This document shows, in pieces, positions 35,469 to 48,966 of a stretch of DNA of 64,000 nt. Made by a program: the position numbers and the translations under genes. The stretch is from Ensifer adhaerens. GTDB taxonomy: Bacteria > Pseudomonadota > Alphaproteobacteria > Rhizobiales > Rhizobiaceae. The stretch is taken from NCBI RefSeq assembly GCF_028993555.1, contig NZ_CP118610.1, forward strand, positions 1,860,001 to 1,924,000, written 5' to 3'. Each line of letters starts with the position of its first letter. Within the stretch, counting starts at the first letter, position 1. Below the pieces are notes generated by a model that ran no database searches, was not told the DNA's origin, and saw only the letters and a list, made by a program, of their open reading frames with translations.

Positions 35469-36530
35469 TCAGAGCTCCATCCGGGCAAGCGCATCCGCCA
35501 GTCGCCGGTCCCCCGTCGCATCCGGCGCAAGCCCGATCCTCAGCCACGTCGGCGCATAGTCGAACTTGCGCGTGAGGATGTGTGCCTCGCAGAGTCGCTC
35601 CTGCAGCAGCGCGGCGCGCGGATGCTCGACCAGCACGAAAAGCCCTGTGCCGCCGATCCGCTTGAGCCCTGCCCCGTCGAGTGCCGCATCGAGGCCGGCG
35701 CGCCGCTCGAGGATACCGGCCGCAATCGCCTTGTTATCGCCCTGCATCTGCGCTTTCGAGATCGTCAGCGCCGGACCGGAAACCGCCCAGGGACCGAGCC
35801 AATCGGCAAAGGACGCAAGCACCGGCTCCGTCGCGACGACGAAACCGAGGCGCAAGCCCGCAAGCCCGAAGAACTTTCCGAAGGAGCGAAAGACGATGAG
35901 ATTGCCGTGCTCACGCACATGGCCGGCAACGCTCAATTCCGGCTGAAGATCGCCGAAGGCTTCGTCGACCAGCAGCAACCCGCCGCATGCCTTTTGCCTC
36001 GCCGCCATCGCCAGAAGTTCGGCAGGCGCGAAAGCGCGGCCGGTCGGGTTGTTGGGGTTCACCACGATGACCAGGGCATGCTCGGCGCTGAGCGCATCGG
36101 CATCGCCGACCCGATCGACGGCAAACCCGGCTGCCGACAGGACGCGGGCATATTCACCATAGGTCGGCCCGAAGATCGCGACGCGCCTTTCTGCCGGCGT
36201 TTCCCTGTTTTCATGCAATCCCGGGCGCAAAACCGCTTCGTACTCTTGCTGGAATCGCATGAGACGCGGCAGCAACTGGATCACCGATTGGGTGCCGGGC
36301 ACCGGCAACGGCAGCACGCCATTGGTACGGTAATATTCTGCCGCTGCGAGGCGTGCATCATCCACCGTCTGCCGATCCGGCAGCCGGTGCCACGCGCGCT
36401 CCGGCACCGGCGGCACGGCGACGGGGCACGGATTGATGCCGGTCGAAAGATCGAGCCAGTCTTCGAGGCGGCCGCCGAAGCGGGCTGCGGCTTCGGTGAT
36501 GCCGCCACCGTGAACGATCGGTGCGCTCAT
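35469..36530 (-). CDS. cobC: CobC, threonine-phosphate decarboxylase-like aminotransferase with an in-frame repeat insertion
   Basis: A 353-residue PLP-dependent protein that supplies the aminopropanol part of cobalamin together with CobD. Visible are LDLSTGINPCPV, NPNNPTGRAF and the PLP lysine in FRSFGKFFGLAGLRLGF. Between SVIQLLPRLM and RRVAIFGPTYGEYAR lies an unusual ~24-residue segment (RFQQEYEAVLRPGLHE...) encoded by a palindromic repeat element (36208-36254). The ATG at 36530 overlaps the cobB stop by 4 bp; the frame upstream to 36857 is a shadow of cobB. Confidence 0.93.
   Translation of the reverse strand: MSAPIVHGGGITEAAARFGGRLEDWLDLSTGINPCPVAVPPVPERAWHRLPDRQTVDDARLAAAEYYRTNGVLPLPVPGTQSVIQLLPRLMRFQQEYEAVLRPGLHENRETPAERRVAIFGPTYGEYARVLSAAGFAVDRVGDADALSAEHALVIVVNPNNPTGRAFAPAELLAMAARQKACGGLLLVDEAFGDLQPELSVAGHVREHGNLIVFRSFGKFFGLAGLRLGFVVATEPVLASFADWLGPWAVSGPALTISKAQMQGDNKAIAAGILERRAGLDAALDGAGLKRIGGTGLFVLVEHPRAALLQERLCEAHILTRKFDYAPTWLRIGLAPDATGDRRLADALARMEL
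36208..36254 (-). repeat. Palindromic repeat element inside cobC
   Basis: 47 bp matching the copy 5' of cobE at 40 of 47 positions. In cobC it is translated as FQQEYEAVLRPGLHE, the same frame as FQQKCAAVLRPELRE in the copy near cobE. It interrupts an otherwise contiguous conserved region of CobC. Confidence 0.8.
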
Positions 36531-38670: not shown

Positions 38671-38798
38671 GCGTGCTGCCTCACCTGTATCCCGGCACCG
38701 CCTGACGGTGCACCTGACGCGAACTCTAAAGAACCGGATTCCGTTTCAGAGCAAACCCGGGCAAAAGATTGATTCAATTCAACAACATAGAAGCGCAT
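38667..38798 (-). CDS. 43-residue ORF bridging cobE and cobA
   Basis: This frame starts with the ATG overlapping the cobE stop (ATGA) and stops with the TGA overlapping the cobA ATG (ATGA). The peptide starts MRFYVVELNQSFARVCSETE and ends IQVRQHA. It has no recognisable domain. Codon use is unlike its neighbours (TTA, TCT, AAT and CAA occur), so it may be a coupling device or a remnant that keeps ribosomes moving into cobA rather than a conserved protein. Confidence 0.4.
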   Translation of the reverse strand: MRFYVVELNQSFARVCSETESGSLEFASGAPSGGAGIQVRQHA

Positions 38799-39226
38799 CA
38801 GACGACCTCTGCGGCCAGACGGCGCGCCTCGACACGCGCCGGCCCGGCAAGGGCCGCCGTCGCATGCGCGGAGACGATCTTCGGTACAATCAGCATCGCC
38901 TCGCTTCCGGCGCCGACAAGGGCTGCCCCTTCGGCCACGCCATGGCAACCGGTGTGGGCAAAGACGATCTCGGAGGGGTTGGCGAGCCGGGACGCTTCGG
39001 CTTCGAGCGTGGCCGCATCGTAGAAGACGGCGGGAACGGCGAAATGCTTCGCGGCCGCAAGGATCGCCGGCTCCTCGGCGCGGGCATCGAGCGACGCGAC
39101 CAGCCGCAGGTCCCCGGCATTGGCACCGGCGTCAGCCAAGGCGCGTTCGGCAAGCGCGATCACCTCTTCGGCCGGCGTCCGACGCTCGCAGCCAAGCCCG
39201 AGCACCAGCCCGGCCTCTTCCGTCAT
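38798..39226 (-). CDS. cobE: Cobalamin biosynthesis protein CobE (CbiG C-terminal-like)
   Basis: A 142-residue protein with the CbiG/CobE pattern EAGLVLGLGCERRTPAEEVI at the start, LRLVASLDARAEEPAI in the middle and IVPKIVSAHATAALA near the end. Its role in corrin synthesis is not fully defined. I chose the ATG at 39226 because the family begins there. An ATG at 39319 with GGGAG upstream would add 31 residues, most of them encoded by a palindromic repeat. First gene of cobE-A-B-C-D. Confidence 0.88.
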   Translation of the reverse strand: MTEEAGLVLGLGCERRTPAEEVIALAERALADAGANAGDLRLVASLDARAEEPAILAAAKHFAVPAVFYDAATLEAEASRLANPSEIVFAHTGCHGVAEGAALVGAGSEAMLIVPKIVSAHATAALAGPARVEARRLAAEVV

Positions 39227-39776
39227 CGTCTGTGCGAGAGAGTTTTTTTCACGCAGTTCCGGACGCAAAACCGCTGCGCACTTTTGCTGGAACTGCTTCG
39301 ATCCCCTAACCGATGCCATCGGCGGCCGGCTCCCTTCGTCGGTTCTCCTTAACGAAGCGCCGGCTGGAACGAACCGTTCCGGCCGATCTGGACAGCACCG
39401 GCTGATGGCCCCCTGGCTGGGTCGGCCGCACCGGACGCTCTTTCAGTCCACCGAAGCGGACGCCGTCGCATGATTGTCATTTTTACCGGAGCGCGGGAGA
39501 CCGGTCAAACCGGATTGCGCCATCGCCATGTCGCGATTGGGGAAGACATGCATCCGGCCTCGACCAAGAAGCGCGCCCGTCATAAACAGCAGCGCCCCGG
39601 CAAAAGACGCAGGACCCAAAATCGAGCGACTCAGGACAAGGCACTGATTTTCTGCAGGATTCGCGATCTGGCCAAGTGCGGCGCGAAGGCATGGCGACAG
39701 AAGGCTTTGCATTTCCCCGCCGGCTCTGACACAAGGCGGAAAAATCTCCCTCTGCGACCTCCCCCCGAGTCCTCCC
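39227..39776. other. Intergenic region between cobE and the TSUP permease gene
   Basis: About 550 bp between divergent genes. It holds the repeat element at 39246-39292 and must contain both promoters. I looked for a cobalamin riboswitch for cobE and found only a weak B12-box-like string, so none is called. The overlapping short frames have no recognisable product. Confidence 0.5.
39246..39292 (-). repeat. Palindromic repeat element at the 5' end of cobE
   Basis: A 47-bp element, 40/47 identical to the copy in cobC and in the same orientation relative to the gene. It lies 20 bp upstream of the family-type cobE start and is open in the cobE frame (FQQKCAAVLRPELRE). Confidence 0.8.
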
Positions 39777-45071: not shown

Positions 45072-45108
45072 CACGCAATTCCGGGCGGAAAACATCGCCC
45101 GGAACCGC
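45072..45108. repeat. Short copy of the cob-region palindromic element between cobN and cobO
   Basis: ACGCAATTCCGGGCGGAAAA and CGCCCGGAACCGC form inverted arms just after the cobN stop. It matches the left arm of the element near cobE and looks internally shortened. It may act as an intra-operon hairpin. Confidence 0.6.
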
Positions 45109-48904: not shown

Positions 48905-48952
48905 GGCAGTTCCGGACGGAAGATGCGTGCTGCGCCTTCCCTCCGGAATTGC
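48905..48952. repeat. Copy of the cob-region palindromic element between cobW and cobN
   Basis: GGCAGTTCCGGACGGAAG and CTTCCCTCCGGAATTGC form inverted arms. The left arm shares GCAGTTCCGGACG with the copy near cobE, and the whole aligns with it with a small indel. It fills most of the 77-bp gap. Confidence 0.65.
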
Positions 48953-48966
48953 GTTATTTCAAAGTA

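Follow-up and report, generated by a model that had tools for sequence, protein, structure and literature searches.

The cobC gene of Ensifer adhaerens, which lies in the 64,000-nucleotide stretch of contig NZ_CP118610.1 analyzed here (hereafter the window), carries within its coding sequence a hairpin-forming repeat that interrupts the gene without breaking its frame. This segment is best read as one copy of a non-autonomous repeat resembling repetitive extragenic palindromes (REPs) or miniature inverted-repeat transposable elements (MITEs), about 55-80 bp long with its tail, widespread in rhizobia and normally intergenic. A further copy occupies the start of cobE in the same window, and another genome of the genus holds a third in thiB. 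Judging from comparisons of sequence, it is highly probable that the repeat entered cobC and the start of cobE in the ancestor of one clade of the genus, was tolerated at permissive places and was later lost in part or in whole, with expression of the inserted peptides predicted. Protein-embedded palindromes are best known from the obligate intracellular Rickettsia; here the same event is met in free-living rhizobia, among which related genomes show empty, filled and partly lost sites next to one another, and it affects an enzyme for which an insert-free crystal structure is available. With the same enzyme at hand in filled, remnant and empty forms, how far proteins tolerate selfish DNA within them can be tested directly.

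The initial annotation had pointed out that a stretch of cobC (36208-36254) recurs at 39246-39292, inside cobE, and that both are read in the same frame of their gene. Both observations hold. The two stretches, each on the minus strand, are identical at 40 of 47 positions (blastn within the window, E 7.7e-6), repeat-finding in the window joins them at 85% in one family (D4), and they translate as FQQEYEAVLRPGLHE and FQQKCAAVLRPELRE, each in the frame of its own gene. A search of the whole genome with the cobC stretch and its flanks returned 20 places at E <= 1e-3, the query site included, and the match between cobC and cobE is therefore not a matter of chance. The cobC stretch spans most of a hairpin core at 36214-36258. 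As to the genes themselves, CobC scores 316.8 bits against TIGR01140 (the threonine-phosphate decarboxylase equivalog, named CobD there; cut-off 290.55), and CobE falls below the cut-offs of the CbiG-type NCBIfam models and above that of Pfam CbiG_C.

The fold of the repeat was derived from an alignment of 19 copies from the own genome (A2; two rows of an earlier 21-row alignment were dropped). It describes a hairpin of 44-45 nt whose outer stem of 8 bp (GCAATTCC/GGAATTGC) is followed inward by a second stem (GSAAAA/TTTTSC) and a short stem at the apex. Pairing is found in 97.5% of the 323 cells of the alignment, and both sides have changed in a compensatory manner in 7 of the 17 pairs. None of 500 shuffles, which ignore the relatedness of the copies, equalled the observed pairing values, and slid structures pair at 39-47%. 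The model built on this structure, R1, finds 103 matches in the own genome at E <= 1. All 16 genomes of the genus contain the repeat, with at least 10-120 matches per genome at E <= 1e-8, counts that are lower bounds given that up to 150 candidates per genome were scored. Farther afield, R1 matches occur in 21 of 121 genomes sampled from the order (own included) at E <= 1e-10 and stricter filters, and an exact-pattern scan returned at least 120 stretches under titles that include Rhizobium, Mesorhizobium, Phyllobacterium, Shinella, Brucella, Xanthobacter and others. The repeat also forms tandem arrays, mostly at a spacing of about 55-63 bp (G004:C1:365447-365772, L161 679-839, L151 1226-1459 and L204 1790-2009; G and L numbers denote genomes and loci), and by eye at least two copies, L006 and L023, run on into a second palindrome. 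A literature search for the letters of the element, using six exact words of 17-19 letters, gave no match.

Alignment of cobC and cobE across the 16 genomes, a comparison that the initial annotation had proposed, separates filled, remnant and empty states at both genes. cobC is present in all 16. The distance between the codons for LLP and VA.FGPTYGEY is 24 nt in nine genomes, where the site is empty, and 84 nt in G000, G003 and G004, which carry the full insert; G008, G010 and G014 retain only the tail (42 nt), and G011 has a different remnant (48 nt). These empty sites, together with the repeat model, bear out the proposal that a palindromic repeat has entered a biosynthetic enzyme without loss of frame. 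The addition had been put at about 24 residues; its in-frame nature stands, and measured against the empty sites its size comes to 60 bp, or 20 residues, with ends that were placed by eye on the alignment and are uncertain by a few nucleotides. In G008, the missing 42 bp span from TGC to TGC at the hairpin base and leave CTCCTGCATGAAAAC, a loss that may have come about by slippage or by excision of the hairpin. Among the 120 best of 7560 CobC homologues, 85 have a turn of 6 residues at this place and 35 have one of 12-34 residues (an earlier, narrower pattern for the turn matched 90 of 121), and two of the lengthened homologues, P0002 and P0003, bear the full insert. With nine of the 16 genus genomes empty and the short turn in 85 of 120 homologues, the segment is no general feature of CobC. 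The lengthening of the same turn in 35 of 120 homologues indicates that it accepts changes of length repeatedly. Many of P0086-P0120, from Rhizobium leguminosarum and relatives where named, carry VAVTDNR-like tandem runs of about 7 residues, variable in number, at this same turn.

On a structure model of CobC, the insert falls in the turn between a helix and a strand. The AlphaFold model (mean pLDDT, the predicted local distance difference test score, 89.6; 47 sequences) extends helix 88-102 into the insert and from there becomes uncertain, with a block mean pLDDT of 61 at residues 101-110 in the numbering of the model, which, like the query P0001, has one extra residue ahead of the start methionine. 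The insert is missing from the crystal structures 9jff and 9jfb, which fit the model at 1.3 A across 331 and 330 of 333 residues, respectively, once low-confidence stretches are trimmed; the solved CobC lacking the insert is about 91% identical.

The position of the cobE copy depends on where the gene starts. Inspection of open reading frames (ORFs) and a codon-usage gene caller had both suggested that this copy lies merely upstream of the gene, a placement overturned by comparison of start codons across the 16 genomes. A start codon stands at the aligned position in every one (ATG, or GTG in G011), preceded by GGAGCC in eight of the nine genomes of the insert-bearing clade and by GGGGCC in G014. 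From this codon to the conserved VLGLGC there are 37-38 codons in G000, G003, G008, G010 and G014, 18 in G011, 17 in G001, G004 and G009, and 12-14 in the other clade. The element is accordingly full length in five of the 16 genomes, a remnant in one and absent from ten, and start and domain keep their register through all three states. Since the CbiG_C domain does not start until residue 38, what the insert lengthens is the tail ahead of it. In G008, the possible starts past the conserved ATG are two TTG codons inside the element or the GTG of the first V in VLGLGC.

A third embedded copy displays the insertion event cleanly. G008, alone of the 16 genomes, has an 81-nt in-frame insert at the N-terminus of ThiB (thiamine-binding protein; L272 1460-2569), with strand and frame matching those of the cobC and cobE copies. 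The insert precedes an apparent signal peptide and lies behind a thiamine pyrophosphate (TPP) riboswitch, the sole match in an Rfam scan of L272, L031 and L116. The empty counterparts in the other 15 genomes (L323-L337) read CCGGCTAGC and the filled site reads CCGG-CTA-AAGCAATTCC...GCGCT-CTAG, with CTA repeated at CTAG. Insertions of IS5-type insertion sequences (ISs) are described with the duplication motif YTAR (PMC10359306), and YTAR occurs in the 7 nt ahead of 15 of 49 own copies scoring >=45 bits, compared with 0.6% of sequence windows, an excess due in part to the stop codons found there. A link of the element to IS5 is only a lead. Taken across the genus, palindromic repeats are thus embedded in three proteins, by 60 bp in cobC, about 60 bp in cobE and 81 bp in thiB, at sites that are empty in 9, 10 and 15 of the 16 genomes, respectively.

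The scan of the genome for further copies and their gene context, also proposed by the initial annotation, places most of them between genes. Context was called with our own codon-usage gene finder, trained on the window and used without annotation; it called the cobE copies intergenic, and genic counts at gene starts are for this reason lower bounds. In the own genome, the 73 matches of 103 that score >=28.8 bits were examined, 68 of them on C1 (4.2 Mb) and 5 on C2 (2.8 Mb), the 30 weakest being left out. The caller placed 67 between genes (29 convergent, 34 tandem, 4 divergent), four over gene ends and two inside genes, namely the cobC copy and a weak match lying 5 nt inside the end of an antisense gene. 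With cobE added from the start-codon comparison, the convincing genic copies among the 73 number two. Twenty of the 67 intergenic copies begin 0-2 nt past a stop codon, often as CTAAAGC or CTAGAGC. Own copies at L068, L071 (twice) and L100 lie ahead of three genes and could be translated if an earlier in-frame start were used; they were set aside by eye, and the L068 product resembles Rpe, whose start we take to lie downstream of the copy.

Other genomes give a similar picture. When 80 of 120 named loci were scanned with R1 (L212-L251 were left out), 110 copies were found at E <= 1e-6, of which four at locus ends were dropped. Of the remaining 106, 101 are intergenic, four overlap gene ends and one ends 3 nt before a gene end; no gene-interior copy was found among these 106, with 12 possible N-terminal read-throughs among the intergenic ones left aside. 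Copies upstream of genes with a possible in-frame read-through are those at L139, L163, L186, L206, L151, L199, L156, L180 and L147. G008 has 112 matches at E <= 1e-3, and the 79 examined (all but the 33 weakest) comprise 68 intergenic copies (the caller counting that of cobE here), six overlapping gene ends, four in two short low-scoring ORFs and one in thiB, so that the convincing genic copies among the 79 are those of thiB and cobE. Further genic copies had been suggested by the lengths of open frames in a peptide search. When the gene caller was run on 50 such loci (30 from the peptide search and 20 picked for long open frames), it put 45 of them between genes, three cobE copies included, with two overlaps, and thiB and two low-scoring ORFs as the interior cases. 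Embedding in gene interiors is rare.

The consensus of the C type is free of stops in five of its six frames, and passage in frame is by that token unremarkable in itself. That all three embedded copies are read in the same frame is suggestive only. One account of it, which we hold doubtful but worth stating, is that target choice and the genetic code together decide where the element can live, making it a mobile, frame-selected peptide module at CTAG-like sites, seen in genes for vitamins B12 and B1. Taking the thiB junction in sense orientation (CTAAAGC), insertion at a site in the phase xxC TAG would leave the copy harmless just behind a gene; in the phase xCT AGx, the consensus frame AIPAKV...IA* would close at the element's own TGA; and the phase CTA Gxx alone would stay open, always adding (K)QFQQKCxAVLRPELREN. 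If true, such an account would explain both the copies that abut stop codons and the one frame common to cobC, cobE and thiB. Against it, neither the cobC nor the cobE junction shows CTAG, junctions of another length alter the phases, and 34 of 49 copies have no stop in the AIPAKV frame of their 45-nt core.

Coordinates in the window of the repeat copies, the inserts and the genes that hold them
Feature	Position	Strand	Basis
Hairpin repeat core in cobC	36214..36258	-	cmsearch model R1, 59.3 bits, E 1e-15; 16/17 pairs standard
60-bp in-frame cobC insert relative to empty sites	36201..36260	-	Alignment to the 15 further genomes of the genus
cobC, threonine-phosphate decarboxylase, 353 aa, ORF intact through insert	35469..36530	-	TIGR01140, Pfam Aminotran_1_2
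Hairpin repeat core in N-terminal coding part of cobE	39252..39296	-	R1, 73.8 bits, E 3e-20; 17/17 pairs
About 60-bp in-frame insert near cobE start	39250..39309	-	Start-to-VLGLGC distances; ends uncertain, placed by eye
cobE	38798..39319	-	Pfam PF01890 (CbiG_C), 104.6 bits, residues 38-158; start codon comparison
Degenerate, shortened relative 1 nt past cobN stop	45074..45108	-	R1, 20.3 bits, E 0.0013 in window
Degenerate relative between cobW and cobN, matching outer arms	48905..48953	.	R1, 23.4 bits (-), 21.0 bits (+)

The two cores in cobC and cobE are separated by 2,994 bp on a replicon of 4.2 Mb; two random chromosomal points fall within that distance with a probability of about 0.0014, a figure calculated post hoc. 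The further copies that had been claimed near cobN do exist, but they are weak (20.3 and 23.4 bits, against 59.3 and 73.8 for the genic pair), and the one behind cobN reads GAATAG-AGCGGTTCC. The names cobO, cobN and cobW are supported by NCBIfam models above their cut-offs, and an Rfam scan of the window at the gathering score returned no family.

The course of events that we favor begins in the ancestor of one clade of the genus, where copies would have entered cobC and the start of cobE. Each would have become protein sequence through the second sense frame (QFQQKCxAVLRPELREN), in which the absence of stops leaves the copies coding, and would have been tolerated because it lay at a permissive place, the helix-to-strand turn of CobC or the tail ahead of the CobE domain. 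The inserts would then have drifted close to neutrality in the protein and been shed partly or wholly by in-frame deletions, among them the removal of exactly 42 bp, the hairpin flanked by TGC repeats, for which slippage is a plausible mechanism. A separate insertion at CTAG in thiB of G008 alone shows such an event cleanly, with mobility presumably conferred by a transposase. Of this course, the data establish the repeat family, the insertion polymorphism, the frame, the place of the insert in the CobC model and the partial losses. On a concatenated tree (ultrafast bootstrap 85-100 on the nodes used), G011 branches first within the clade, then G008, then the rest, and in the other clade none of the seven genomes has an insert at either gene.

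Several observations weigh against this history. Two genomes with both sites empty, G009 and G001, fall within the clade, so losses or recombination must be assumed; single insertions need at least five losses at cobC and at least three at cobE on the tree, so that recombination or more than one insertion may have played a part. Only thiB has a clear target duplication (CTA/CTAG), CTAG being absent from the junctions in cobC and cobE, and no transposase has been linked to the element, no search for a parent IS having been made. The cobE copy of G003 is much altered (30.4 bits). Variable columns at first, second and third codon positions number 1/3/2 in cobC and 6/3/7 in cobE, hardly or not at all favoring third positions, and so give no clear sign of selection on the inserted peptide. 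The start of cobE offers the remaining objections, and they feed an alternative that we regard as unlikely, namely that the cobE copy lies only in the 5' leader, that CobC alone among the proteins of this genome holds a copy and that the frame common to the two is coincidental. The codon-usage caller did pick a cobE start downstream of the element; an internal ATG follows the element in G000, G010 and G014, the one in this genome's cobE standing 7 codons before VLGLGC and usable as a start; the first V of VLGLGC is GTG in 8 of the 16 genomes, including this genome and G008; and the element is free of stops in five of six frames. The leader would have to be squared, however, with an upstream start aligned in all 16 genomes and GGAGCC ahead of it in eight of nine clade genomes, with G008 and G003, which have neither ATG nor GTG between the end of the element and VLGLGC, and with the register that start and domain keep across full, remnant and empty states.

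That the inserts are kept for a function in RNA, with hairpins in cob transcripts acting in mRNA processing or stability and coding as a by-product, strikes us as less probable still. Two strong and two degenerate copies do lie within about 13 kb of cob genes, the repeat usually sits in gaps, often right behind genes as transcript hairpins do, and the hairpin is fully paired at cobE in two genomes and at cobC in G003. However, it is gone from cobC in G008, G010 and G014 though the tail remains, and G001 and G009 have neither insert. Nor is the own-genome cobC hairpin clearly more stable than its shuffles (z -0.83; 38 of 200 fold equally well), with z of -2.3 to -4.0 for three other folded copies. 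The odds are about even that the short CobC and CobE of G001 and G009, and the CobE of G004, represent clean deletions or recombined alleles, or that the element entered repeatedly, variants that are compatible with the history we favor. The genomes with short forms nest inside the insert-bearing clade on the concatenated tree, and some changes in the cobC element are common to G000 and G004 but missing from G003, the sister of G004. None of these variants denies insertion, and the other clade is empty at both genes throughout. Chance similarity of two GC-rich stretches can be dismissed with near certainty in view of the E-value of 7.7e-6 in the window, scores of 59-74 bits, the covariation and the presence of the same repeat in 16 of 16 genomes; a lone match lacking further genomic copies is not what the 103 R1 matches describe.

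Among known repeats, the element invites comparison first with the REPs. GTAG/CGTC-tagged REPs are short palindromes, mostly intergenic and near 3' ends, and some lie wholly inside ORFs in several species, with in-frame intragenic REPs already published and those at N-termini often doubtful (PMC3733652). Membership in the CGTC group was suspected since the repeat contains CGTC, and the same text names S. meliloti as a host of that group, defining it by a stem of 8-9 bp with AT at its first and second positions, a loop of 4-5 nt, a terminal CGTC and a CCA-like tail (PMC3733652). The repeat described here departs from that definition: its two-tier stem starts with GC in the consensus outer stem and continues in an inner stem with a 3-nt loop and a one-sided internal bulge, and it lacks an AT-leading stem with a CGTC or GTAG tag at its end. 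Rhizobia also carry the Rhizobium-specific intergenic mosaic elements (RIME), intergenic repeats with large palindromes arranged in modules, with which the second palindrome beside L006 and L023 is a point in common; the element may belong to that family or be one of its modules. The thiB insertion is like those of IS5-type MITEs in lying at CTAG with CTA repeated, given the YTAR motif of IS5 insertions (PMC10359306); this is the only clean junction, and terminal inverted repeats are not established for the whole unit. Our search of open-access literature on rhizobial protein-embedded palindromes, CobC and YTAR-type elements (titles and abstract openings, with most subscription papers outside it) found no report of this case. 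The insertion described here is genuine and well resolved, an element of a known kind having entered proteins in a lineage for which no such report was found. The parallel drawn by the initial annotation is with the Rickettsia palindromic elements (RPEs), and it holds for the in-frame palindrome in protein genes and fails for the habit of the family. Nearly half of the Rickettsia elements, which measure about 150 bp, sit in ORFs according to a review (PMC10969869). Here genic copies make up two of 73 in the own genome and those of thiB and cobE among 79 in G008 (N-terminal cases being lower bounds), with none in gene interiors among the 106 from named genomes. By description, the element is also set apart by its length of about 60-80 bp and by its three embedded genes in the genus, cobC, cobE and thiB. 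What it shares with the RPEs is a palindromic repeat that keeps the reading frame of the unrelated metabolic genes it has entered, which apparently tolerate it (PMC10969869; PMC3733652).
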